Positions 13,433 to 26,415 of a stretch of DNA of 64,000 bases are shown here, piece by piece. Each line of letters starts with the position of its first letter. Positions within the stretch are counted from its first letter, which is position 1. A program made the position numbers and the translations under genes. The notes under the pieces were generated by a model. It searched no databases, had not been told where the DNA came from, and was given only the letters and a program-made list of their open reading frames with translations. Origin of the DNA: Halobellus inordinatus (GTDB lineage Archaea > Halobacteriota > Halobacteria > Halobacteriales > Haloferacaceae); the NCBI RefSeq assembly GCF_024464655.1, contig NZ_JANHAV010000005.1, forward strand, positions 124,001 to 188,000. Direction: 5' to 3'.

Positions 13433-14008
13433 ATGGAAGAACCGCGCGAGGAGCTGAAGGCCGACGCCGACGAGCGTGCCGAAGCACCCGACTTCGAGGC
13501 TCTGACTCCTCCGGAGGAGTTGGTGCGTGGCGACCGAACGCGGGACGACTTCTTCGACGCCGTCCTCGCCCTCGACAGTCCGGCAACGGCGAAGGAAGTC
13601 GCCGAGCTTGCGGGCCACGGTGTCGATGCCGCACGCGAGTACTTGGACTGGTTCGAGCGGATGGGGATCGTAACGCAGGTCACGGACTCACCAGCCACCT
13701 ACGAACGGAACCAGGAGTACCTGAACTGGCGACGGGTCCAGAAGCTCCGCCAGCAGTACGCTACTGACGAGCTTCTCGACTTTCTGAAGATGGAATCAGA
13801 GCGCGCAGAGACGTTGCAGAGCGAATTCGAAGTCGAGTCGCCGGACGAAATCTCGATTACACGCTATGCGAGCGAGACAGACCAATCCATCGAGGACGTC
13901 TGGGAACGCCTCTCTGCGTGGCAGACAGCCCGCCGTCGGGTGGCGCTGCTCGAACGAGCACTTACGACACGGTCCGGTGACGGTGCCGATATGCAGTCAG
14001 CGGTATGA
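13433..14008 (+). CDS. Winged-helix DNA-binding protein, possible antitoxin of the pair with the next gene
   Basis: The 191 aa product has a helix-turn-helix around residues 45-85 (DSPATAKEVAELAGHGVDAAREYLDWFERMGIV). A helical C-terminus follows (RRVQKLRQQYATDELLDFLKMESERAE), which is likely to mediate dimerisation. Similar haloarchaeal proteins are annotated DUF7342-type wHTH. It overlaps the downstream gene by ATGA, and AAGATTTATT at about 13400-13409 is a likely TATA box. The tight coupling to a small TumE-like protein suggests a toxin-antitoxin pair, with this as the repressing antitoxin. Confidence 0.7.
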   Translation: MEEPREELKADADERAEAPDFEALTPPEELVRGDRTRDDFFDAVLALDSPATAKEVAELAGHGVDAAREYLDWFERMGIVTQVTDSPATYERNQEYLNWRRVQKLRQQYATDELLDFLKMESERAETLQSEFEVESPDEISITRYASETDQSIEDVWERLSAWQTARRRVALLERALTTRSGDGADMQSAV

Positions 14009-14448
14009 GCGGCGACGACGAGAACGCGTCAGATTCACGTAGCGGTGCACCGATCGATTTCGACCGACTCGACGCGATCCGAGAGCGTTTCTCGGCTGGT
14101 GACCGCTTCGAGCGAATCGACGACCAGCCAGCGTTTGCGCCGGAACGACTGGTCGGGGTGTACGACCAGCGGTTCTACCCGGAACGAATTCGTGCTGCCC
14201 GCCTGGAGGTCGTCTGGTACGAAAACGGAGACTTCTCGATTCACTACCACGAGGAACACGAGCGTGGCGAGTTCGATCACAGATGGGACAGGCACCCATC
14301 CAGTCACAACACCCGTGACCACGTTCACCCGGGGCCTGATGCACCGACGCCCGGTGACGACGCGTCACATCCGGCTGATTGGCGAGACGTGCTCTCGACG
14401 GTTCTCTCGGAGATCGAAGCCCGGCAGCGTGCCTTCTGGGGCGAGTAG
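14005..14448 (+). CDS. TumE-like putative toxin
   Basis: The 147 aa protein contains RLEVVWYENGDFSIHYHEEH followed by FDHRWDRHPSSHNTRDHVHPGPDA and ends DVLSTVLSEIEARQRAFWGE. This His-rich pattern resembles, from memory, haloarchaeal proteins assigned to the TumE toxin family (formerly DUF6516). The many histidines and the central HNTRDH segment could be catalytic. The ATGA overlap with the HTH gene fits a two-gene module. The family call is from pattern memory only. Confidence 0.55.
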   Translation: MSGDDENASDSRSGAPIDFDRLDAIRERFSAGDRFERIDDQPAFAPERLVGVYDQRFYPERIRAARLEVVWYENGDFSIHYHEEHERGEFDHRWDRHPSSHNTRDHVHPGPDAPTPGDDASHPADWRDVLSTVLSEIEARQRAFWGE

Positions 14449-14552
14449 CGGAGGCTTCTGACCCCCCGTGATCGATCCGCGACTCTTCTTGCGCGATCGC
14501 TTGGAGCAGGTCGCTTGCGAGGTGGAGATGCAAGCGAGATATTCAGCAGACG

Positions 14553-14993
14553 TCAAACGCTATCGTTTCGAAACTGCAGTAGGTCCACTGTGACGGGGAG
14601 GTTGTCGAAGTCGTCGTCTGCGCCGACGACCAGTGTTGCGTTCTGCTCGTGTGCGAGCGTCACGGTGTGAGCGTCCGCGAGAGAGATGTGGCCATCGGCT
14701 TTGATTTCACCGGCGACCCGCCAATCCGCCCGATCAATTTGCAGACCGCGACGTTCCAGGGTACGGAGATCGCGGTCGGATTCCCGAAGGGATTCTTTCG
14801 TTGGCTTCCCCTCATCCGTCCCCTCGAAGCGCGCGATGAGATAGAAGATCTCGCTGGCGTTCGCCTCGGCGATCCGACCCGGCACACCTCCCGCAAAAAC
14901 ATCGGTCAGTAGATCGGCGACAGTATCGTGGCCGGGCTCACTGTAGAGGAACGCGATGATAGCCTCGGTGTCGAAAACGTAGCCCGAACTCAT
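14553..14993 (-). CDS. vapC: VapC-type PIN-domain ribonuclease toxin
   Basis: The 146 aa PIN domain shows the first acidic residue in YVFDTEAIIAFL, the conserved Glu in ANASEIFYLIARFEG, the ISLADAHTVTLAHE segment with the third acidic residue, and the terminal GADDDFDNL. These four acidic positions chelate Mg for RNA cleavage. It is coupled by a 4-base overlap to the AbrB-type antitoxin gene. It lies just after the TumE-like pair, in the accessory segment beyond tRNA-Pro. Confidence 0.92.
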   Translation of the reverse strand: MSSGYVFDTEAIIAFLYSEPGHDTVADLLTDVFAGGVPGRIAEANASEIFYLIARFEGTDEGKPTKESLRESDRDLRTLERRGLQIDRADWRVAGEIKADGHISLADAHTVTLAHEQNATLVVGADDDFDNLPVTVDLLQFRNDSV

Positions 14994-15298
14994 TCGTCGA
15001 CGTCCTCGTCCGCAGACGGACGAAGCCGTTCAGCGCGCTCATCTTCGCGGCGGCGTTCTTCGTCTTTGTGCTCGCGCACTTTGTCCAGCACCTCACCAGG
15101 CTCGTGCTCACCGGCGTGGATGCCGTGGAGTTCCTCAACCGAGGGAACAGGCTCGATGACGATGCGTCCCTCCTCTTCGTAGACGAATACTTCTCCCGGC
15201 GTTTCGATGCCGAACTTCTCACGCAGCGCTTTCGGAATCGTTGCTTGCCCTTTCTGCGAGACTTGTATCACTTGCTTAGCTTGGGTATTACTCGACAT
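14990..15298 (-). CDS. vapB: AbrB/MazE-fold antitoxin of the VapBC pair
   Basis: The 102 aa product begins MSSNTQAKQVIQVSQKGQAT and continues IPKALREKFGIETPGEVFVYEEEGRIVIEPV, the swapped-hairpin AbrB/SpoVT DNA-binding fold. The charged helical tail would wrap the toxin. As in most such modules it precedes the toxin, and the complex probably represses its own promoter. AT-rich promoter sequence lies at 15299-15340. Confidence 0.9.
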   Translation of the reverse strand: MSSNTQAKQVIQVSQKGQATIPKALREKFGIETPGEVFVYEEEGRIVIEPVPSVEELHGIHAGEHEPGEVLDKVREHKDEERRREDERAERLRPSADEDVDE

Positions 15299-15437
15299 TA
15301 TTTGTTGTACTATATTCTTCGTGTATTACTAAGCGTGTCGCCGATGAGATTCGGAACTCCGGACATCTCCGCGACGTACGGGTCCACACAACCGGCACGA
15401 GCTTCGAAAAAGAATGCCGTCCCGTGGAAGCTGACAG

Positions 15438-16712
15438 TCAGGGCTTGAACGGTGCCACCTTTGTACTCGTACCTTCGTCTTCGAGTTCGGTTTCGAAGTT
15501 GGAGATCGAGTTTCGAATTAATTTGTTGTTCTCCGCCACGGGTTCATACTCACTGCTCGTATCGTTGTTTTCCTTGTGTACAGCGACGCCGATCTGCCCT
15601 TCTGGGTCGGTTTCGCCTTTGAGGGTGTTGTTGACCACTTTGTTGTTGCTGACGGATGCGTCCATCTGGGTTAGCGCTCCTCCATACGGTTCGGTCACTG
15701 ACTCAAGCAGAGCCCCGTATTCCACCTTCTCCACCTCGTTGTTGGTGAATTGGTTTTTATCAGCAGATGCGTTGAACCATCCCCACGAACCGCACGATAG
15801 GCCGATATCAGCATCCTTGACAGTGTTCTGTTTAACACTCACACCATCGCTTTCGAATATGAGGATGCCGGCGGCAACAGGTCCCTCGTCGCTGTACCTG
15901 TTCCCAGTGACCTCGTTCTGATGGACGAGTCCCTCAGCTCCGAAGCCAATTTGGATTCCATTCGGACCCCAAGCCTCACCAATATCGCCTGAGGTTTCAA
16001 CCGTGTTATTTCGGACTTTGGCCGTTGGTGACGGGTGAGCGCCTCCGTCACCGTTTGCGCCGATGCCGCCCCTCTCGTAATCTCGGACAATGTTTCCAGT
16101 TATCTGAACGTCGGAGTCACCGTAAGCGAGGATTCCGAACGTCTCTTTCCCGCCAACACCGACGTTTTTGATAGTGTTTGAGTCGATGGTGCCGGACGCG
16201 TTCCGATACAGCACTGCGGGTTTGCGTCTTGCATCGGGCTGTTCTGACTGACCATCCAGGGTCAACCCCTCGATGTCGACGTCAATAGTGCCGGCTCCGC
16301 TGACATCCCCCGAATCCACTGTCCCGCCGAACGCGAAAACCATCGGCTCCCACGTTGGGCCGCTCTCCGCGATCGTGAAACTCTCCTTTGATGTTCCGGG
16401 CTTGATCGTCGGAGTCGTTCCCTCCACGGCTTTCAAATTCAGTGATTTGTTAATTACGAGCTGCTCGGCATAGGTTCCTCCGTCGATGCAGATCGTATCA
16501 CTCGACGAGGCAGATCCGATCGCGTCCTGGATCGAGGCGTAATCGTCTGGAACAGTAATATCACAATTTCCGTTTCCTTTCCCCTTCCCATTGCCGGGAC
16601 TCGCGAGTGCAGTACCAGTTAATCCGGAAACACTGACTGTGCCGATTGCTAGTGTTTTCAGTGTCTCTCTGCGGCCGAACGCCTTCGTTGTCGAATTGTC
16701 TTTTTCAGCCAT
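15438..16712 (-). CDS. Secreted right-handed beta-helix protein with Tat-type signal
   Basis: The 424 aa product has an N-terminal twin-arginine-like signal (FGRRETLKTLAIGTVSVSGL, then ALA). The mature part starts ITVPDDYASIQDAIGSASSSD and is typical of pectate-lyase-fold/NosD-like repeats. Repeated Asn-rich turns such as NTIKNVGVGGKETFGILAYGD and QNTVKDADIG mark successive coils. It is likely an extracellular carbohydrate-binding or lyase-like protein, but no catalytic residues can be assigned. Base composition is more AT-rich than neighbouring core genes, suggesting transfer. Confidence 0.75.
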   Translation of the reverse strand: MAEKDNSTTKAFGRRETLKTLAIGTVSVSGLTGTALASPGNGKGKGNGNCDITVPDDYASIQDAIGSASSSDTICIDGGTYAEQLVINKSLNLKAVEGTTPTIKPGTSKESFTIAESGPTWEPMVFAFGGTVDSGDVSGAGTIDVDIEGLTLDGQSEQPDARRKPAVLYRNASGTIDSNTIKNVGVGGKETFGILAYGDSDVQITGNIVRDYERGGIGANGDGGAHPSPTAKVRNNTVETSGDIGEAWGPNGIQIGFGAEGLVHQNEVTGNRYSDEGPVAAGILIFESDGVSVKQNTVKDADIGLSCGSWGWFNASADKNQFTNNEVEKVEYGALLESVTEPYGGALTQMDASVSNNKVVNNTLKGETDPEGQIGVAVHKENNDTSSEYEPVAENNKLIRNSISNFETELEDEGTSTKVAPFKP

Positions 16713-16906
16713 AGGCAGTCAGCTCCTCATTCTCGAATATATAATCGTGAACTTTGTTGATATACCTTGACAAGTATAAACCAAATGCAGAGTATAACCA
16801 AGAAAGTTGAAGATAACTAGATCACTCAGACTCAATCTGATTACTTTCTCCTCCCACAAATAAAATATAATATTCATTCATTGTCTATATTATACGATCC
16901 GAGGTT

Positions 16907-17065
16907 ATGTCGCACATCGTTACTGTAAATCAGGAGACACTAACCCAGCAGAGAGTTCTGGGACGTTGCGACTACTGCACGACCTATGGGAATGTCGAAA
17001 GAGTCCAAGCGATGTTAGCTGCTCGTCCCAGTTTGACATTGCGCCGCAGTCTGTTTGAGAAGTAA
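16907..17065 (+). CDS. Possible 52 aa microprotein with CXXC
   Basis: The frame reads MSHIVTVNQETLTQQRVLGR then CDYCTTYGNVERVQAMLAAR and ends SLFEK. One CDYC pair is present. There is no overlap with other genes, and the upstream TCATTGTCTATATTATAC is promoter-like. It may equally be a remnant. Confidence 0.3.
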   Translation: MSHIVTVNQETLTQQRVLGRCDYCTTYGNVERVQAMLAARPSLTLRRSLFEK

Positions 17066-17230
17066 CCTCCGAACCGCTGTTTTCGCGATTGACTCGTTAC
17101 ATCCTATGTGCCCACGTGAGAGCAGCCGATTCGTCGGCCACCCGTCAGGACACACCCTTCTACCCCGGTATAAATCGGTTATACCGTTAAGCTACAGAAC
17201 AATGCGGTTACGGGCCCTTCATTCAATTGT

Positions 17231-17380
17231 ATGACGAAGAGAAACCCTACCGACGATCGAGGCAGAGAGACCGAACCGAACTTCTATCTCCCCGCCGGAT
17301 CCCCCTCAATGTCCGTCGCCGGTCGGATTGAGCGTATCTGGGCGAAGTTGTTCAGCCACGGCGTCGAAACGCCGGCGTAG
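17231..17380 (+). CDS. Possible 49 aa microprotein or gene remnant
   Basis: The frame starts MTKRNPTDDRGRETEPNFYL and ends RIWAKLFSHGVETPA. No domain is recognised. The preceding sequence (17160-17225) is AT-rich. It could be the broken start of a longer gene. Confidence 0.25.
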   Translation: MTKRNPTDDRGRETEPNFYLPAGSPSMSVAGRIERIWAKLFSHGVETPA

Positions 17381-17644
17381 CTGCGAATGAATGCGGTGAA
17401 CCACCCGGTCCAGGTAGATTGGATCGAGTTCTGAGTGGGACTCATATTCTGACTACCGTGTACGAGGAGTAGGCACTCGAGACAGTATTTATCGTGTCAA
17501 CCCACCTTGACTAACCGACTCACTTAACACACCACACGCCCACAACTACGACTCCGATAGCAAACATCGCAGTGTACATCTTCGTCGGATATCTCAAAAC
17601 TCATTGATTGCAGAACCATACAACAAATACGCAGCTACAGAACA

Positions 17645-18310
17645 ATGGCCGATATTAAAGCGGTCGTCAGAGTCGAGCACCCTGACATAGTGCTCACAGA
17701 GACAGTCAACCACGACCGAAGCGCGAAAGTCAAATCGGTGTCAGAGGCGGGAACTGATCCCACATCGGGGAAGTTCTTCTATCGTATCGAGTCCTCGGAC
17801 TTCTCGCGGTTTGAGGAAGGATTGCGGAGCGATAACACCGTCGGCGAATTCGAACGCGTTATCGAAACCAGAGACGAGGAAGCCATCTATAGCTTCGAGT
17901 ACACGGACGAAGCGAAAATCCTCTCGTCGGTTATTTCGACCGCGAATGGTGTCACACTCGAAATGGAGAACGAGGGAAGGGCGTGGATATTCACGATATG
18001 GGTGCCCGAACGAACGAACCTGACCCATCTCTGGAACTATGCACAACAGCACGACATCGACATCGACTTACTGCGCGTGAACGAATACGATAGTTTGGGC
18101 ACCAAAGACGCGGGGTTGACCGATAGCCAACGAGAAGCACTGCTCGTTGCATTGGAGACAGGGTATTTCGAAGAACCACGGAACGCAACGCTCAGCGAGG
18201 TCGCCGCTGATCTGGACATCTCACAACCCGCCGCCAGCGGTCTTCTTCGGCGTGGAACCAAGCGACTCGTCGTATCGTCTCTGGTGGATGACAGTGACGT
18301 ATCAGATTGA
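17645..18310 (+). CDS. Bacterio-opsin-activator-like HTH-10 transcription regulator
   Basis: The 221 aa protein has an N-terminal alpha/beta sensor region (MADIKAVVRVEHPDIVLTET). The C-terminal HTH_10 domain is diagnostic: LTDSQREALLVALETGYFEEPRNATLSEVAADLDISQPAASGLLRRGTKRL. Such one-component regulators are common in haloarchaea and respond to metabolic or light/redox cues. It lies convergent with the phosphatase-like gene at 18380, so it is near but not co-transcribed with the ebo-like cluster. Confidence 0.9.
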   Translation: MADIKAVVRVEHPDIVLTETVNHDRSAKVKSVSEAGTDPTSGKFFYRIESSDFSRFEEGLRSDNTVGEFERVIETRDEEAIYSFEYTDEAKILSSVISTANGVTLEMENEGRAWIFTIWVPERTNLTHLWNYAQQHDIDIDLLRVNEYDSLGTKDAGLTDSQREALLVALETGYFEEPRNATLSEVAADLDISQPAASGLLRRGTKRLVVSSLVDDSDVSD

Positions 18311-18379: not shown

Positions 18380-19789
18380 TCAGTCCGAAGTCGACCGCAC
18401 GCCAGACAGCAGCGATGCCGCCTCGAAGTCCATCTCCAGCCGCCCTTCGACCCCGAGAAGCGTCGCGATCGTCGGCGCCACGGCCCGCGCGTCGACCGGT
18501 CCGTCGGGTGACAACGTCTCCGGAGCGGCAGGGCCGCCGAGCCCGTACACTCCTCGCGTCTCCTCGTCGACGCGGCCGTGTGAGCCGCCGATCTGTGTCG
18601 GGTCGAGCGAGGCCAGTCCAGCATCGCCGACGAAGAGCTCGCAGGGGTCGAAGCCGGGCTTGGCGTGGATGTCCATATCCGTGGCGTACGATGGGGCCGC
18701 CTCGTTGGCGTCCCACCAGTAATACTGGAACCAGGCGTCTGGTTCGGCGACTAACACGAGGTCGCCCGCGTTCGGATGGTCGATACCCCGCGCCGCCGTT
18801 CCGTCATCGTCCAGCATCTGGGCCACGCCGTCGAGCGCTTCGAACGTCTCGCGGGCGGCGGCGACCACGTCAGCGTCGGCGTACACGTGCGCGACTTGGT
18901 GGTCGACCATCGCGAAGGCTGCCGAGCGTGAGAGATCGACCTCCTCGCCGCCGTGGCCGTCGTCGGTCACCGAAAGTAGCCCCGCTTGTCGAAGCGCGCG
19001 GTTGGGGAACACCGGCGTATCGACCGAGTGGAACCCGTACTCGCTGACGACGTTCACGACTGTCTCCTGCCAGCGCTCGTCCGCACGGAGGAACGACAGA
19101 AACGAACCGAGGAGTTCGTCGACAGTTTCGAGCGCCGCGTCGGTCTCGGGCGCGTCGGGGCCGTGCCGCTGCGCGTCGTAGTCGAGGTGCGGGACGTACA
19201 CCCAGAGTAGGTCGGGGTCGAACCGTTCGATCGCCTCGCGCGCGGCGGTCAGGATCCACTCGCTGCTTCGCTCGTTCGCGGCCGGCCCCCAGTAGTTGTG
19301 GAGCGGGAAGTGGCCGTACTCGGCCTCCAGATCGTCGTACAACCCGTCAGGATTGGTCCAGCAGTTCATCTCGAGTATGTTGTTGTCCTCGTCTTCGATC
19401 GGCGACGGCGTTACCGACACGTCGGCGTTCGTCCCGACGAGGTGCTGGAAGAACAGCGCGCCGGTGGTGAGACCGGCGTCGGCGGCGGCTTCCCAAATCC
19501 GAGTGCGGTCACCTCGGTCGCGCTCCCAGAAGGCCACCGCGTCCGCGTCGCGGTCGTACTCGCCGTTCGCCACGTCGCCGTGGGCCGCTGGCGAGCGTCC
19601 GGTCGCGAGCGTCGTCTGGGCCGGGACCGTGACTGCGGGAAACGGAGGCCGGAGGTCGGCCGTGTGCTCCTCGTCGAGCAACCCGGTCAGGTTCGGCGCG
19701 TGGCCACCGCCGAGGTGGTCAGACTGGAGACCGACGACGTCGAGGACGACGACGCGCCGGTCCGCGGCCGGCCCGTCGGAGACGGTCAT
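18380..19789 (-). CDS. Alkaline-phosphatase-superfamily hydrolase (nucleotide pyrophosphatase/phosphodiesterase type), EboF-like
   Basis: The 469 aa enzyme begins RRVVVLDVVGLQSDHLG and has PPFPAVTVPAQTTLATG, where the Thr/Ser nucleophile of type I phosphodiesterases lies. The metal-binding Asp/His residues follow in LWVYVPHLDYDAQRHGPDA, and GGSHGRVDEETRG lies toward the C-terminus. It should cleave phosphomonoesters or phosphodiesters. It overlaps the upstream inositol-phosphate-synthase-like gene by 4 bases, so the two are translationally coupled. In bacterial ebo clusters a member of this superfamily is EboF, hence my functional placement by context. Confidence 0.82.
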   Translation of the reverse strand: MTVSDGPAADRRVVVLDVVGLQSDHLGGGHAPNLTGLLDEEHTADLRPPFPAVTVPAQTTLATGRSPAAHGDVANGEYDRDADAVAFWERDRGDRTRIWEAAADAGLTTGALFFQHLVGTNADVSVTPSPIEDEDNNILEMNCWTNPDGLYDDLEAEYGHFPLHNYWGPAANERSSEWILTAAREAIERFDPDLLWVYVPHLDYDAQRHGPDAPETDAALETVDELLGSFLSFLRADERWQETVVNVVSEYGFHSVDTPVFPNRALRQAGLLSVTDDGHGGEEVDLSRSAAFAMVDHQVAHVYADADVVAAARETFEALDGVAQMLDDDGTAARGIDHPNAGDLVLVAEPDAWFQYYWWDANEAAPSYATDMDIHAKPGFDPCELFVGDAGLASLDPTQIGGSHGRVDEETRGVYGLGGPAAPETLSPDGPVDARAVAPTIATLLGVEGRLEMDFEAASLLSGVRSTSD

Positions 19790-20994
19790 TCGACAGCCGC
19801 CTCCATCGAGTGGCGGTCGACGTACGCGTCGAGCAGCGCGAACTGTCGCGAGAGGTCGTGTTCGTCGACGCCGATCGGGGCCTTGAAGAACGACGCGAGA
19901 TGCCGCTGGAGCCCCCCTTCGCCGCGCTCGTCGGCGTGGGCGAGCAAGCGAACGAGGTCGAGCACGAGCGGAGCGGCGAGTGCCGAGTCCGAGCCCTCCC
20001 AGGTGAACTGCATCTTCATTTCGGTGTTCAGGAAGCCCTCGAAGTGGACGTAGTCCCAGGCGGTCTTCCAGTCCCCCAGCGACGGTGTGTAGTCGATGCG
20101 GACCCGGTTGTGCTCGATATCGGGCAGGATGGAGTCGAGCACGCCTCCCTTGCTCGCCAATTTGCCGGCCTTGTTGGCCTCGTCTTCGAGGACCTGACCG
20201 TCGTCGTTGCCGAGGACGTTGTGGCCCTCCCAGGACCGCACGTGGAGGTTCCGCCCGCCGAACATCGGCGCGAGTGCCGACTTCACGAGAGTCTCACCCG
20301 TCTTGGCGTCCCGTCCCGTGTGCGGAACGTTCCGATCGTCGGCGAGTTCCCGGAGGCCGCCGAGTGCCGAGCCAGTGCTCGGCGTGAAGTTGACGTAGGG
20401 GTGTCCGTCGACGATCGCGGCGTACGCGTAGAGTGCGCTCGCGGGGAGGTCGCGGTCGTTTTCGGCGATCGCCCGCTCGAACGCATCGAGCGTGTCGTAT
20501 CGGTCCGGATCCTCCAGCGGCGGCTCGGTCGAGGCGACGTTCACCACCACCACACGATCGAGGTCGTGCTCCCGACGGAACGCCCGGTAGTCGTCTCGGA
20601 TGCGGTCGACGACCTCGCCCACCGGGAGCCGTTCGTCCAGCGAGCCCCTGTCGGCGAGGTCGTCGACGGCCGCCCCGCAGTTCAGCGCCGTTCCCGTCTC
20701 GATCCGTCTGTCGATGTGGCGGAGGTCCTCGGCCACTGTGTCGACGATTTCCGGAGATGGGACGCCGTTCTCGGAGAGATTTCGCGCCGACTCCAAGAGG
20801 CTCTGCTCTCTGATGTCGTGGCCGCCGAAGACGAACTCTCCGACGTCGGGGAGCGCCAGTCGCGAGTACGGCTCCCGGGCCGTCACCAGGCCAGTCGTGT
20901 CCGTTTCGCCGCGGGCCAGTGCTCGCGCGCCTGCTATCGCGGTGGTCGCGACGTTTCCGCGCGCGCCGGTCAGCCAAACACCTGTGCTTGTCAT
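19786..20994 (-). CDS. myo-Inositol-1-phosphate synthase family enzyme
   Basis: The 402 aa protein opens with a Rossmann start (GVWLTGARGNVATTAIAG). It carries NVASTEPP, NFTPSTGSALGGL and GRDAKTGETLVKSALAPMF, then the long C-terminal motif VRIDYTPSLGDWKTAWDYVHFEGFLN. These match the Inos-1-P synthase family, which converts glucose-6-phosphate to inositol-3-phosphate with NAD. The ATG at 20994 (MTSTGVWL) is preferred over an upstream start. Here it is coupled to a phosphatase-superfamily gene, and faces away from the TatD/TIM/UbiA genes. It may make a cyclitol substrate rather than ordinary inositol. Confidence 0.85.
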   Translation of the reverse strand: MTSTGVWLTGARGNVATTAIAGARALARGETDTTGLVTAREPYSRLALPDVGEFVFGGHDIREQSLLESARNLSENGVPSPEIVDTVAEDLRHIDRRIETGTALNCGAAVDDLADRGSLDERLPVGEVVDRIRDDYRAFRREHDLDRVVVVNVASTEPPLEDPDRYDTLDAFERAIAENDRDLPASALYAYAAIVDGHPYVNFTPSTGSALGGLRELADDRNVPHTGRDAKTGETLVKSALAPMFGGRNLHVRSWEGHNVLGNDDGQVLEDEANKAGKLASKGGVLDSILPDIEHNRVRIDYTPSLGDWKTAWDYVHFEGFLNTEMKMQFTWEGSDSALAAPLVLDLVRLLAHADERGEGGLQRHLASFFKAPIGVDEHDLSRQFALLDAYVDRHSMEAAVE

Positions 20995-21189
20995 TGGCGT
21001 AGGTACTCCGTGTCGAACTAGCGACATTGTTATGACACGCCTGAACGAGACAGGTACCGCTGGGAGGGCGACACTCGATCGAACGGGCCTGAGAGCGCTT
21101 ATTTGACCTTCTATTCGCTGTTTTTTCTGTTTCTGCAGCCGGTAGTAAGAGACTCATAACGAAGTGAGAACTACCTGATAGCTGAATCG

Positions 21190-21990
21190 ATGCGCGTGAT
21201 CGACCCCCACATGCATATGGTATCACGGTCAAGCGAAGACTACCGCCGAGCCCGGCGGGCGGGAATCGAGTGCTGCATCGAACCGGCGTTCTGGAGCGGG
21301 ACAGACAAACGTCACGCGGGCTCGTTCTTCGACTACTTCGAGCACATCACCGACTTCGAGACCGAGCGCGCCGAGCGCGCGGCCGGGATGGACCACTACG
21401 TCACCCTCGGGCTCGAACCAAAGGAGGCGAACTACCCCGAGATGGCCGAGGAAGTGATGGAACGGCTCCCCGAGTTCCTCGACCGCGAGAACGTGGTCGG
21501 CGTCGGCGAGATCGGGCTCGATCAGGGGACGGACGCCGAGGAGTACGCGTTCCGCAAGCAGCTCCGGATGGCCGAGGAACGCGAACTCCCCGTCATCGTC
21601 CACACGCCCCACGAGAACAAGCCGGAGGGAACCGAGCGGCTCGTCGAGATGATCCAAGAAGAAGACGTCACCGAGGAACGGATCATCATCGACCACAACA
21701 CCGAGAACACGATCGACACCAGTCTGCAGACCGACTGCTGGATCGGATTCACCCTCTATCCGGGCAAAATTGCGGACGAGAAGGCCATCGACCTGCTCGA
21801 GGAGTACGGCACCGACAGGATGATACTCAACAGCGCGGCCGACTGGGACCCCTCGGACCCGCTGGCGGTGCCGAAGGCCCGCGACAAGATGCTCGACCGC
21901 GGCTGGGACCGCGAGGCGGTCCGCACGGTCGTCTTCGAGAACCCATACGCGTTCTTCGACCAGTCGCCCAACTTCGATTACGAGCCCTGA
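21190..21990 (+). CDS. TatD-family metal-dependent hydrolase, EboB-like
   Basis: The 266 aa TIM-barrel amidohydrolase begins MRVIDPHMHM with the first metal pair His-X-His. It continues VVGVGEIGLDQG (metal-bridging Glu), ELPVIVHTPHENK (metal His), IIDHNTENT and MILNSAADWDPSDP (terminal Asp). All canonical TatD metal residues are therefore present. Rather than a nuclease, the cluster context suggests hydrolysis of a small-molecule intermediate. It is followed six bases later by a TIM-barrel epimerase-like gene on the same strand. Confidence 0.88.
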   Translation: MRVIDPHMHMVSRSSEDYRRARRAGIECCIEPAFWSGTDKRHAGSFFDYFEHITDFETERAERAAGMDHYVTLGLEPKEANYPEMAEEVMERLPEFLDRENVVGVGEIGLDQGTDAEEYAFRKQLRMAEERELPVIVHTPHENKPEGTERLVEMIQEEDVTEERIIIDHNTENTIDTSLQTDCWIGFTLYPGKIADEKAIDLLEEYGTDRMILNSAADWDPSDPLAVPKARDKMLDRGWDREAVRTVVFENPYAFFDQSPNFDYEP

Positions 21991-21996
21991 GAGCCG

Positions 21997-22824
21997 ATGC
22001 AATTTGCATTCTCAGCCAACGCGTTCCAGCCGTACGATCAGCTCGAAACCGTCGAGATTCTGGCCGACATCGGGTACGACGGGGTGGAACTCCTGCTCGG
22101 CGCGTCGCACCTTCACCCCGCAGACACGGGCCAAGCGGACATCGCCGCGGTCGAGAACGTGCTCGACGATACGGGCCTCGAGATAAGCAACTGTAACGCG
22201 TTTATGATGACTGCGGAGGGCTTTCAACACCCTTCCTACGTCGAGACCGATCCCCGGTACCGCCAGCAGCGCATCGACTACACGCACGAGTCGCTCCGTC
22301 TGGCCGACGCCATCGGAGCCGACTCGATTTCGATCCAGCCGGGCGGCCCCGTCCCTGCAGACCGGTCCTACGAGTGGGCGATGGAGACGTTCAGAGAGAG
22401 TATGCGGTCGATCGTACAGATCGCCGAACCCCTCGACGTCGACGTGCTGATCGAACCCGAGCCGGACCTGCTGATCGAGACGACAGACCAGTATCTCGAC
22501 ATCGCAGACCGTGTCGACTCGGAAGCGGTCGGCTGCAACTTCGATGCGGGACACCTCTTTTGCGTCGGCGAGGACCCCGCCGAGGCCGTCGGCCGGGTCG
22601 TCGATCAGACGCCCCACTACCACGTAGAGGACATTCCGGCCGACCGCACGCACGAGCACACCCAACTGGGCGACGGCGCGATGGACATCGACGGCTTTCT
22701 CGAAGCCGTCGCGGAGACGGGCTACGATGGATTCGTCACCGTCGAGCTATACCCGTATCAGGAGACCGCGGCTGAGACGGCGCGCGAGGCGTACGAGTAT
22801 CTCGACGAGCACGGGTGGATCTGA
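21997..22824 (+). CDS. Sugar-phosphate isomerase/epimerase (xylose-isomerase-like TIM barrel), EboE-like, first of three
   Basis: The 275 aa protein starts MQFAFSANAFQPYDQLETVE, then ILADIGYDGVELL, with metal-ligand segments DVLIEPEPDLLIE, NFDAGHLFCVGED, YHVEDIPADRTHEH and GYDGFVTVELYPYQ. This Glu-Asp-His-Glu pattern is the AP-endonuclease-2/xylose isomerase family. It probably isomerises or epimerises a sugar or cyclitol intermediate. It is eight bases before the UbiA gene. Confidence 0.86.
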   Translation: MQFAFSANAFQPYDQLETVEILADIGYDGVELLLGASHLHPADTGQADIAAVENVLDDTGLEISNCNAFMMTAEGFQHPSYVETDPRYRQQRIDYTHESLRLADAIGADSISIQPGGPVPADRSYEWAMETFRESMRSIVQIAEPLDVDVLIEPEPDLLIETTDQYLDIADRVDSEAVGCNFDAGHLFCVGEDPAEAVGRVVDQTPHYHVEDIPADRTHEHTQLGDGAMDIDGFLEAVAETGYDGFVTVELYPYQETAAETAREAYEYLDEHGWI

Positions 22825-22831
22825 TCGGACG

Positions 22832-23770
22832 ATGGCTCACTCTCGACGCGGCACACGCCGGGTTCGACGCACTGTGGCCGCGTACGCCGAGTTAGTTCGC
22901 GTTCCGAACCTCTTCACTGCGCCGCCGGACGTGATAGCCGGGGCCGCACTCGCCGTCGCCGCGGGCGGGACGGCCACGGTCCCGGCCGTCGCCGGCGTGG
23001 CCGCCGCTTCGGTGCTGCTCTACGCCGCTGGGACGGCCCTCAACGACTTTTTCGACGCCCCCGTCGACGCGGAGGAATGTCCGGAGCGACCGATCCCTGC
23101 CGGTCGAGTATCGCGCCCGACGGCCGGTGTTTTCGGAGCCGCGTTGCTGCTCTGTGCGGTGCTCCTCGCAGTCGCTGCAGCCGGCGCTACTGCCGGAATC
23201 GGGGCACTCGCGGTCGCAACGGCGGTCGTCGCGTACGACGGCGTGCTGAAGGGCGGACCGGCGGGGTTCCTAGCGATGGGCGCGGCGCGCGGACTGAACG
23301 TCCTGTTCGGGACGACGGCTACAGACGCGACGGTCGCGTCGCTGCCCCTGTGGGCGCTCGGTATCCCGGTCGTGCTCGCCACGTACGTCGCGGGCGTGAC
23401 GCTGGTGGCCGCAACGGAGACGACCGGGGCGTCGCGACGGTCGGTGGTGATCGCTGGCGGCGCCGCCGGAGTCGCCGGGACGGTCGCGGTGACCCTCCTC
23501 GCGACTGTCGGCCTCACCGCCCACGGACTCGCTGCCGGCGTCGGCATCGTACTCGCGGCCGCGTTTCTCGTCGTGACGGGACGAGCGCTCGCACGGGCCT
23601 ACCGTGACCCGTCGCCGGAGACGGTCGGCCCGGTCATCGGGACGTGCGTGCTCGCGCTCGTGCCGCTCGATGCGGCGGTCGCGGCCGTCGCTGGCGCCGG
23701 ATGGGCGCTGGTCGCGATCGCGTTCGTCGGTCCCGCAGTCGGACTGTCACAACTGTTCGCCGTCTCGTAA
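22832..23770 (+). CDS. UbiA-family prenyltransferase, EboC-like
   Basis: The 312 aa protein is mostly hydrophobic, with eight or so membrane helices. The first Asp-rich motif is visible as NDFFDAPVDAEECPERPIPAG (NDXXD type). The second motif appears weakened to YDGVLKGG. UbiA enzymes transfer prenyl chains to an acceptor in the membrane. Its place between two TIM-barrel genes suggests the acceptor is the product of this pathway, possibly a polar cyclitol- or sugar-derived head group. The start at 22832 (MAHSRRGTRR) avoids overlap with the preceding gene. Confidence 0.86.
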   Translation: MAHSRRGTRRVRRTVAAYAELVRVPNLFTAPPDVIAGAALAVAAGGTATVPAVAGVAAASVLLYAAGTALNDFFDAPVDAEECPERPIPAGRVSRPTAGVFGAALLLCAVLLAVAAAGATAGIGALAVATAVVAYDGVLKGGPAGFLAMGAARGLNVLFGTTATDATVASLPLWALGIPVVLATYVAGVTLVAATETTGASRRSVVIAGGAAGVAGTVAVTLLATVGLTAHGLAAGVGIVLAAAFLVVTGRALARAYRDPSPETVGPVIGTCVLALVPLDAAVAAVAGAGWALVAIAFVGPAVGLSQLFAVS

Positions 23771-23894
23771 GGAGGATGATGACACGTATGCATCAGAGAC
23801 ACACGATTCACCGAGCCGGATTCGAATCGACGACGGCGCACCGACGACGAACCGTAGCTGCCGGCCGCCCCGGCAGGCGCAGAGGGGGGCAGTG

Positions 23895-24743
23895 ATGGTC
23901 GAGTTGGCCTTCTCGACGAACGCCTATTCCGAATACGGACTTCCGGAGGCGGTTCGGCGCATCGCCGATCACGGCTACGCTGGCGTCGAGATTCTCGGCG
24001 ACGAGCCCCACGCCTACTTCCCGACGTTCGACGGCCGCGAAGAGCGCGCGCTGTGCGATGCCCTCGCGGAGACCGATCTGTCGGTGGCGAACGTCAACGC
24101 GAACACGGCGATGGGCTACTACGACGACGCGCCGCCCTCGGCGTTCTTCGAGCCGAGCGTCATCACCGACGACGAAGCGGCCCGCGAGTGGCGCATCGAG
24201 TACACGCACCGCGCCATCGACCTCGCGGAGGCGGTGGGGTCGCCCGCGGTCTGTCTCGCGACCGGCCGACCGCTCGCGGGCAACCCGCCGAAACGGGCGC
24301 AAGAGACACTTCGCGCGTCGCTCCACGAGATCCTCGACTACGCAGAGCCGCGGGGCATCGACGTCGGCATCGAGTTCGAACCGGAACTACTCGTCGAGTG
24401 CACCGACGAGGTGTTAGCCCTGATAGACGACGTCAGCCGCGAGTCGCTGGGCGTCAACCTCGACGTCGGGCACGCGGCCGTGTACGGCGAGGACCTCACC
24501 GAGACCATACACCGAAGCGCGGGCCACATCACCGGCGTGCACGTAGAGGACATCGTCGGCGGCCGCCGGGGCAAACACTACCACCGGATCCCCGGCGAGG
24601 GCGACCTCGACTTCCGGGCCATCTTCGACGCGCTGGACGACGTCGGCTACGACGGGTTCGTCACCGCCGAACTGTACACGTACCCGCACGAGCCCGATCG
24701 GGCAGCCGAGCGTGCGTACGAGGAACTGGTGCAATACTGCTGA
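23895..24743 (+). CDS. Sugar-phosphate isomerase/epimerase (TIM barrel), EboE-like, second of three
   Basis: The 282 aa protein begins MVELAFSTNAYSEYGLPEAV and has VGIEFEPELLVECTDE, VNLDVGHAAVYGEDL, VHVEDIVGG and GYDGFVTAELYTYPHEPDRA. It is a clear paralogue of the gene at 21997, with the same metal ligands. The duplication suggests two related isomerisation or epimerisation steps. The 120 bases between UbiA and this gene contain a short Arg-rich frame that I do not support as a gene. Confidence 0.86.
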   Translation: MVELAFSTNAYSEYGLPEAVRRIADHGYAGVEILGDEPHAYFPTFDGREERALCDALAETDLSVANVNANTAMGYYDDAPPSAFFEPSVITDDEAAREWRIEYTHRAIDLAEAVGSPAVCLATGRPLAGNPPKRAQETLRASLHEILDYAEPRGIDVGIEFEPELLVECTDEVLALIDDVSRESLGVNLDVGHAAVYGEDLTETIHRSAGHITGVHVEDIVGGRRGKHYHRIPGEGDLDFRAIFDALDDVGYDGFVTAELYTYPHEPDRAAERAYEELVQYC

Positions 24744-24936
24744 GGTGCAGGACTATTGAGATCACTCTCGCTTCCTGTCGGGCCTGCGGCGGACGTCAGT
24801 GGCCACTGGCAAAACAACGTCCGGCGCTCCCGAGACAACTCTGGAGTGCTGCAATACGTCACGGACGTCTGGCAGACAGCATCAGCACTCGGATATCGAC
24901 CGACATCACCTTCCTGCTACGCCACAGACTACCGCT

Positions 24937-25251
24937 GTGTCAGAGACGTTTCACGGCGACGTACTGCGTGTCATTCCACCAGACGAACTCACCGAGCACG
25001 ATCTCGAACCGGCCTTAGAGGAACTGGCTGCATCGCGTGGCGTCCTGGTCTGTCGCCGCGGGGGCCATCCCTCGCTGTTGGAACTCATATGGGCGTTCGT
25101 GAGGCGAGACCCAATCGAGGCGGTCACTGTCGTTGCGGACGTCGAAGACGAGGACATCACCGAGGGCGACGAGATAACCGCACAGATCACAGAGACGGAA
25201 CTATTCGGTGTCTACGAGGTAACCGGCACTATGGACGTTGACCGGGCTTGA
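24937..25251 (+). CDS. Uncharacterised small protein in the ebo-like locus (104 aa)
   Basis: From GTG 24937 the frame reads MSETFHGDVLRVIPPDELTE, then HDLEPALEELAASRGVLVCRRGGHPSLLELIWAFVRRDPIEAVTVVADV and a very acidic end. No motif is recognised. It sits between the second and third TIM-barrel genes on the same strand, so a role in the same pathway is possible. The stretches 24744-24936 and 25252-25491 hold no other gene that I can support. Confidence 0.5.
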   Translation: MSETFHGDVLRVIPPDELTEHDLEPALEELAASRGVLVCRRGGHPSLLELIWAFVRRDPIEAVTVVADVEDEDITEGDEITAQITETELFGVYEVTGTMDVDRA

Positions 25252-25491
25252 TACTGTTCGCGAAATAGTAGGGGCCTGATAGTCGCAGCGCGCGGCAGCG
25301 CGAATAGCTGCGTGTTCGTTGTCAGGATCGATCGCGGGATCCAGAGACCGAACCGAGTTGGTTCCGATAGCTATCATTACTCGCCTCCGACTCCACTGCC
25401 GGTAGAACGCGGCATAACTCGCGGCGATTGGCCGATTAGTGAGGAAATATGCGTTCTATAACAATACACGCGCCAGCGGACTACAGAAACT

Positions 25492-26415
25492 GTGACCGAC
25501 ATACCTCGACCAGCGTTGCAACTCTACAGCGTGCGAGCGCTCGACGATTCGCTCCCGGACATCGTTCGCCGGGCCGCGGCGGCCGGCTACGAGGGCGTCG
25601 AATTCGCCCATCGCTTCCGGGAGGAACCGCCAGAGGCGGTCGCGGCCGCCCTCAGCGAGACCGGGACTGTCCCTGTCGGCGTCCACGCCGAACTCCCGCT
25701 CGTCGAAGCGGCCCTCGAAGGCGAAAACGACCTCCTCGACCGCTGCTCGACGATCGGCTGTGACCGATTGATCGTGCCGCACATCTCGTTCGGACACCTC
25801 AGATCGCGGAACGCGGTTCAATCCCTCGCCCAGCGACTCCGCGACGCCTCGGTGGCGTTAGACGACCACGGCATCGATCTCGGCATACACAACGTCCGGC
25901 ACTACCTCTGGCCGCTGCTGCCGGACGTCGTGGAGACGATCACGGACGCAGCACCGTTGCCTCCCGGCGTCGAGAACGCCGCGACGATGGCGGCCAGTCG
26001 TGCACTCCGCGCGGGTCGCCAGCCGAAAGCCACCAACACCGGCCTCTGGAATCTGATCACGCAGACGGAGGCTACGGACCTCTTCTTCGAAGTCGAGGTC
26101 GGAGAGATCCGTGCCGCCGGGTTCGATCCCGTCTCCGCGTTTCCGATGTTCGGTGATCGACTCGAACTACTGCACCTGCGAGACGTTGCACCCACCGGAC
26201 GCTTCGGAGCCTTCGAAGACGCGCCGCACGGGGAGGGCGTCCTCGATATGGAACGGATCTTCGCCGCCGCTCGCGACACGGGCGTCGAGTGGATCGTCTA
26301 CGAGAACGAACTCGACGTCGACGCCGACTCGAAGATCGATCACGGGGCCGCGTTCCTGCGCAAACACCTCGGCCAGAACCACGATCCCGACGTTCGCCTC
26401 GCAGACGCCGAGTAG
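25492..26415 (+). CDS. Sugar-phosphate isomerase/epimerase (TIM barrel), third of three
   Basis: This 307 aa protein starts at GTG 25492 (MTDIPRPALQLYSVRALDDS). The LQLYSVR opening and GYEGVEFAHRF are typical of the IolE/IolI-like sugar-phosphate isomerase group. Later segments include FFEVEVGEIRAAGFDP, LLHLRDVAPTG and VEWIVYENELDVD. It is more divergent from the other two barrels than they are from each other. A promoter region of about 240 bp separates it, so it may be transcribed independently. Confidence 0.82.
   Translation: MTDIPRPALQLYSVRALDDSLPDIVRRAAAAGYEGVEFAHRFREEPPEAVAAALSETGTVPVGVHAELPLVEAALEGENDLLDRCSTIGCDRLIVPHISFGHLRSRNAVQSLAQRLRDASVALDDHGIDLGIHNVRHYLWPLLPDVVETITDAAPLPPGVENAATMAASRALRAGRQPKATNTGLWNLITQTEATDLFFEVEVGEIRAAGFDPVSAFPMFGDRLELLHLRDVAPTGRFGAFEDAPHGEGVLDMERIFAAARDTGVEWIVYENELDVDADSKIDHGAAFLRKHLGQNHDPDVRLADAE

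Follow-up and report, generated by a model that had tools for sequence, protein, structure and literature searches.

Background

The ebo gene clusters (EboA-F) are known from Bacteroidota, Cyanobacteria and eustigmatophyte plastids (PMC5133447, PMC6282210). A prenylated cyclitol was proposed as the product of bacterial ebo in 2016 (PMC5133447). Nostoc ebo mutants build up scytonemin monomer in their cytoplasm, and transfer of this monomer to the periplasm, the site of ScyE action, was the role proposed for ebo (PMC6282210). In vitro, an EboC of flavobacterial origin adds farnesyl groups to quinoline acids (PMC9235831); therefore, the EboC family is active on non-native substrates. In Streptomyces coelicolor, SCO3242 and SCO3243, the latter annotated as myo-inositol phosphate synthase, are located in the CDA region (PMC3610822). 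The current work concerns a block of six genes in the haloarchaeon Halobellus inordinatus, found in a stretch of 64,000 nucleotides (contig NZ_JANHAV010000005.1, positions 124,001 to 188,000; hereafter the window). The block includes a gene of inositol-3-phosphate synthase (MIPS), and we consider it fairly probable that the locus is a haloarchaeal ebo cluster of a MIPS type, which would make a prenylated inositol-derived membrane lipid.

Conservation and distribution of the block

The block occupies positions 18380-24743 of the window and consists of two divergent units. The minus-strand unit encodes an EboF-like protein and MIPS, and the plus-strand unit encodes a TatD-family hydrolase, a TIM barrel (TIM1), a UbiA-superfamily prenyltransferase and a second TIM barrel (TIM2). 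These families were assigned by Pfam and NCBIfam profile searches of the window proteins. An earlier reading of the sequence only had placed TatD, UbiA, three TIM barrels and a phosphatase-superfamily gene together; all of these families are present where it put them, but only two of the TIM barrels belong to the block.

Among 292 sampled genomes of Halobacteria, 37 contain an orthologous UbiA; two more UbiA matches are weak (about 36% identity) and lack the block around them. A block was scored as complete if all six genes lay within 20 kb and kept their divergent order. The sequence-only reading had allowed that the genes might be scattered in close relatives; instead, 31 of the 37 genomes with UbiA carry the complete block; in one of these the EboF gene is broken, and a few show slight departures such as an intervening gene or one inverted unit (L041, L055, L063, L067). 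Because the six genes recur in this way, their grouping is far beyond chance, and the six genes are well supported as a real, conserved unit. In the other six genomes, the block is cut by contig ends or the MIPS gene is located elsewhere. MIPS and UbiA occur together in 37 of the 292 genomes, MIPS alone in one and UbiA alone in none (Fisher p 3e-46, kinship ignored, with related genomes counted as independent). In the host family, TatD was found in 19 of 170 genomes, MIPS in 19 and both in 18. Unbiased clustering of neighbours in the haloarchaeal loci gave no further constant member, and a phylum-wide sample of 345 genomes gave no match outside the class Halobacteria.

The block is patchy within genera. 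It is plasmid-borne in Halobaculum salinum, Halocatena salina and Natronococcus CG52, and also in Haladaptatus pallidirubidus, there without an adjacent MIPS. Plasmid location and patchy presence suggest that transfer and loss have shaped the history of the block.

Relationship to bacterial ebo clusters

The window UbiA matches the NCBIfam models of SCO3242 (NF045897, 7.6e-50) and EboC (NF035940, 1.5e-48), both below the curated cut-offs. In a quick tree of EboC proteins, many forks of which are weak, the haloarchaeal proteins form one clade (SH-aLRT 98), placed next to the EboC of Actinomycetota and Gemmatirosa MIPS-type clusters (SH-aLRT 87). The same tree sets the window protein very far from the DGGGP synthase of its own genome, which is a separate gene (L085). 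The tree and this separate gene rule out an enzyme of core archaeal lipid or quinone synthesis, the identity that the sequence-only reading had named as fatal to its own proposal; the protein belongs with the EboC/SCO3242 clade. TatD and the EboF-like protein are 41-45% and 40-46% identical, respectively, to their counterparts in bacterial MIPS-type clusters. Thus, the earlier view of the UbiA, TatD and phosphodiesterase-fold genes as ebo relatives is borne out.

The comparison of gene content between haloarchaea and bacteria, recommended by the same reading, recovered bacterial MIPS-type relatives in addition to the haloarchaeal block. A scan of GTDB genomes with the UbiA alignment yielded the best 80 loci, 74 of them bacterial; these 74 best matches and six plasmid loci made up the 80 loci that were typed. 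Among the matches listed, 41 of the 80 have EboD, 16 have MIPS, none has both and 23 have neither; additional TIM barrels were seen in 12 of the 16 MIPS loci vs none of the 41 EboD loci, and TIM2 and EboE share no locus. According to NCBI annotation, Streptomyces plasmids (L076-L079) carry in a row MIPS, SCO3242 prenyltransferase, sugar phosphate isomerase, an EboA-domain protein, TatD, EboE and a phosphodiesterase-fold gene, and two of these loci (L077, L078) contain a propeller of ScyD/ScyE type. Related sets with MIPS were found in Planctomycetota, Gemmatirosa and Desulfotignum. The exchange of EboD for MIPS is therefore real but not an archaeal novelty: MIPS with intact catalytic residues stands in the haloarchaeal block, and the bacterial loci have MIPS too. 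In a search confined to the haloarchaeal loci, the rest of each genome not being searched, EboD had no match in any locus, and MIPS was there instead. Near the haloarchaeal blocks, EboA gave no tblastn match and no extra conserved open reading frame (ORF) was seen; EboA diverges fast.

Several details of the bacterial loci may be recorded here. In the Gemmatirosa MIPS-type cluster, EboE and TatD are separated by a small uncharacterised ORF (L081:3991-4602) without NCBIfam match, at the place expected for EboA or for EboG of PMC5133447. A TIM barrel is fused to EboA in Nonomuraea (L080:10344-11819). In Streptomyces L078, a multicopper oxidase gene stands beside the cluster.

One of the earlier assignments failed, namely a TIM barrel as the counterpart of EboE. 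The EboE model of NCBIfam scores 28.5 bits for TIM1 and 21.8 bits for TIM2 vs a cut-off of 250, and the TIM tree separates EboE, a group here called TIMX, and a third group of TIM1, TIM2 and the planctomycete and Desulfotignum TIM2; neither protein is EboE proper.

Judged by the EboC tree, the TIM tree and the bacterial gene company, the locus is assigned to ebo in the broad sense, as a MIPS-type variant of the Actinomycetota pattern and not as a strict EboA-F cluster. In the literature searched, mostly outside subscription journals, no description of a MIPS-type, inositol-type or archaeal ebo cluster was found; the ebo papers PMC5133447, PMC6282210 and PMC9235831 contain none. On this literature, the MIPS-type ebo variant in haloarchaea appears new; the Streptomyces gene annotations were already public.

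Predicted enzymes and pathway

MIPS is a single-copy gene in this genome. The nearest solved enzyme is A. fulgidus MIPS (1u1i, E 7.7e-89), and the positions matching its D225, K274, K278, K306, D332 and K367, which we take to be its catalytic Lys/Asp set, are conserved. Because of this conservation, myo-inositol 3-phosphate is well supported as the predicted product. Some MIPS genes are located outside the block: in genome G297 (L209), in genome G207 (L210), as a second copy in Halobaculum salinum (G329; L212) and on a Halomarina plasmid (L220), where the gene adjoins a glycosyltransferase gene. As a side observation, these genes may point to another use of the enzyme in haloarchaea.

The metal-ligand set of TatD (H7, H9, E107, H138, H169, D218) is conserved in 98 homologues. 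TIM1 and TIM2 both keep an E/D/H/E metal set (E153/D183/H209/E250, conserved in TIM1), and their chemistry would be that of an isomerase, epimerase or dehydratase. TIM2 is conserved beside UbiA in haloarchaea.

Structures of EboC and the EboF-like protein were modelled with AlphaFold2, with plasmid-record rows left out of the input alignments. The EboC model (pLDDT 95.4) has DGGGP synthase (6m31) as its best PDB fold match, and this enzyme is also the nearest solved structure by sequence. The reaction of DGGGP synthase is the prenylation of a polyol phosphate at a hydroxyl. EboC has the first Asp-rich motif, NDxxDxxxD, in full (N71, D72, D75, D79). Prenylation by the window EboC is thus supported by family and predicted fold. 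The EboF-like model (pLDDT 90.6) best matches Xac nucleotide pyrophosphatase/phosphodiesterase (NPP; 2gsn, E 1e-20) and keeps the nucleophile T54 and the ligands D203 and H404. A DHQxxH motif (residues 296-301) is invariant in the EboF family and is shared, with a SEYG motif, by Nostoc EboF; a DIHxKPGxDP motif is nearly invariant among the homologues. When MIPS and EboF are split from the rest of the block, as in two genomes (G255, G249), the pair stays together, which suggests that the two proteins share a step.

What follows on the substrates of EboC (donor and acceptor), the sequence of reactions, the product, the chemistry of TIM1, TIM2, TatD and EboF and the biological role is inferred. 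MIPS would convert glucose 6-phosphate to myo-inositol 3-phosphate. TIM1 and TIM2, as metal-dependent enzymes of isomerase, epimerase or dehydratase type, may with TatD reshape the cyclitol or a cyclitol conjugate, and the EboF-like protein may handle a phosphorylated intermediate. EboC would then attach an isoprenoid chain, most likely geranylgeranyl, and the resulting prenylated cyclitol would remain in the membrane. A pathway joining a prenyl chain to a cyclitol had been suggested by the sequence-only reading; the MIPS residues and the EboC family and fold agree with it, but the product is still conjectural and is the one already put forward for bacterial ebo.

Secreted redox genes near the block

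Proteins of glucose/sorbosone-dehydrogenase (GSDH) type are enriched near the block, with 19 copies within 10 kb vs 0.8 expected. By genome, 14 of the 37 with the block have such a gene within this distance vs 0.78 expected (L033, L036, L039, L041, L050, L052, L055, L067, L091 and others). Several of the linked proteins have blue-copper (plastocyanin-like) domains and signal-like N termini, and genes of Tat-type multicopper oxidases occur near six blocks. GSDH presence as such was rejected as a marker of the block, only its position being enriched. The Streptomyces propeller matches the Nostoc propeller (E 2.6e-22) and, weakly, haloarchaeal GSDH (1e-5).

The GSDH linkage may echo the ScyE link of cyanobacterial ebo, and the hypothetical theme in common would be the support of secreted redox enzymes. 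By analogy with the extracytoplasmic scytonemin step, the prenylated cyclitol could serve the secreted redox enzymes encoded next door, at least in some hosts. A wider proposal, which we rate as rather unlikely, is that MIPS- and EboD-type ebo both make membrane-held prenylated cyclitols, which secreted redox enzymes of beta-propeller and copper type would use as carriers or cofactors; the propeller partners would be of ScyE type in cyanobacteria, ScyD/E type in Streptomyces and GSDH type in haloarchaea. If this were true, bacteria and archaea would share a lipid cofactor of a new class.

Several points weigh against the prenylated inositol lipid and its proposed role. The second Asp-rich motif of UbiA is reduced to a single invariant E196 in the entire EboC/SCO3242 family, and because of this loss the prenyl donor may differ. 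The EboF-like protein has the NPP fold with most metal ligands replaced (V19, Q207, E250, Y251), leaving the two-metal set incomplete, and the replacement is common to the whole EboF family and not restricted to the window copy. EboF was annotated by family membership as a hydrolase of phosphate moieties (PMC5133447). Because of the replaced ligands, the phosphatase label appears unsafe, the phosphodiesterase annotation may mislead, and a standard two-metal mechanism is unlikely. A role as simple inositol-phosphatase is doubtful, because EboF is found in EboD-type clusters as well, and the cyclase of those clusters probably releases its cyclitol without a phosphate. For the redox role, 23 of the 37 UbiA-bearing genomes, including that of the window, lack a GSDH gene in the 10 kb around the block; GSDH is found in 275 of the 292 genomes, block or no block, and this class of enzymes is therefore not dependent on the block as a whole class. 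In the literature searched, no product, mutant or assay was found for any MIPS-type ebo cluster.

Alternative explanations

Haloarchaeal lipids with inositol headgroups have been reported, and their biosynthesis is partly resolved (PMC8305020). MIPS and the EboF-like protein might therefore supply myo-inositol for ordinary phospholipids of this kind, with the nearness to UbiA, TatD and the TIM barrels being incidental. The MIPS genes outside the block (G297, G207, the second copy in G329 and the Halomarina plasmid) would fit this explanation; however, MIPS occurs in the 37 genomes with the UbiA block and in only one other of the 292, and it replaces EboD amid equal gene company in several bacterial phyla. 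We consider the explanation unlikely.

A catabolic role for inositol-type or keto-sugars was also considered, in which sugars would be oxidised outside the cell by secreted dehydrogenases and imported keto-sugars would be handled by TatD and the two TIM barrels. The blocks of Halocatena salina and Haladaptatus pallidirubidus lie amid ABC transporter, PQQ-type dehydrogenase, ThuA, DUF1080, Gfo/Idh/MocA and mandelate-racemase genes, and TIM1 and TIM2 weakly match models of IolO, IolE and hydroxypyruvate isomerase. In most genomes, however, the core block recurs without those neighbours; moreover, the MIPS reaction is a biosynthetic one, and catabolism offers no obvious task for a membrane prenyltransferase. 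Such a function is thus very unlikely.

Equally improbable is an aromatised, prenylated quinone-like compound made from an inositol-derived ketone as electron carrier or cofactor for the secreted dehydrogenases and copper oxidases: the linked GSDH, blue-copper and multicopper-oxidase genes, the membership of the TIM barrels in the IolE inosose-dehydratase superfamily and the activity of EboC on aromatic acids in vitro (PMC9235831) speak for it, but the block has no inositol dehydrogenase, the MIPS residues point to the normal inositol-phosphate product, and GSDH also occurs in block-free genomes.

Gene arrangement in the window

The features of the block are listed in Table 1.

Table 1 Features of the six-gene block of Halobellus inordinatus (window positions)
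Feature	Position	Strand	Evidence
EboF-like protein, nucleotide pyrophosphatase/phosphodiesterase fold, altered metal site	18380..19789	-	PF01663 E 3.9e-54
Inositol-3-phosphate synthase (MIPS)	19786..20994	-	PF07994 E 4.3e-49, PF01658 E 1.5e-32
Divergent intergenic region, putative promoters of both units	20995..21189	.	Sequence; equal layout in relatives
EboB-like TatD-family metal-dependent hydrolase	21190..21990	+	PF01026 E 4.4e-20
TIM1, xylose-isomerase-like TIM barrel	21997..22824	+	PF01261 E 5.4e-44
EboC/SCO3242-like UbiA-superfamily membrane prenyltransferase	22832..23770	+	PF01040 E 1.7e-20
TIM2, xylose-isomerase-like TIM barrel	23895..24743	+	PF01261 E 2.5e-40

The MIPS and EboF-like genes overlap by 4 bp, and the gaps on the plus strand are 6 bases (TatD-TIM1), 7 bases (TIM1-UbiA) and 124 bases (UbiA-TIM2). 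Three neighbours were rejected as members of the block: the third TIM barrel (25492-26415) and an HTH_10 regulator gene (17645-18310), which are not conserved beside the block in relatives, including those of the same genus, and DUF7526, which is not conserved in relatives. Directly left of the block, G+C falls to 0.51-0.57 in window 14000-18000, with surroundings of about 0.65; this stretch is possibly an edge of inserted DNA. An empty-site comparison in the genus located the right flank in two relatives without the block and resolved no insertion boundary.

Significance

For the widespread ebo cluster, whose product has been in question since 2016, the MIPS variant with its known chemistry limits the candidates to prenyl lipids derived from inositol. 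The block sits in culturable haloarchaea, among them Halorubrum saccharovorum and Halogeometricum limi, which makes deletion and lipidomics feasible. Haloarchaeal MIPS usually belongs to the block, and annotating it as the supplier for inositol phospholipids could be mistaken.

Comparison with known systems

DGGGP synthase resembles the window EboC in its NDxxDxxxD motif and as the nearest solved structure; it differs in its tree clade and its separate gene, and EboC lacks a second Asp-rich motif. Like the EboA-F clusters, the haloarchaeal block brings together EboB-type TatD, EboC-type UbiA and EboF-type genes with a carbocycle-forming enzyme and a TIM-barrel isomerase. Unlike them, it has MIPS for EboD and two TIM barrels of another subfamily for EboE, is arranged in two divergent units without a detected EboA, and belongs to an archaeal host. 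In the EboC loci of Planctomycetota and Desulfotignum (L098, L111, L118, L125), a TIM2-type barrel likewise adjoins EboC, MIPS and/or EboF are present in several and EboE is absent; clustering is looser, however, with TIMX in addition and EboB distant or missing. The MIPS/SCO3242 clusters of Actinomycetota also combine MIPS, SCO3242-type UbiA, a TIM barrel, TatD and a phosphodiesterase-fold gene, and their EboC is the nearest to the haloarchaeal clade in the tree, whereas they carry EboA and EboE as well, and TIMX in place of TIM1 and TIM2.

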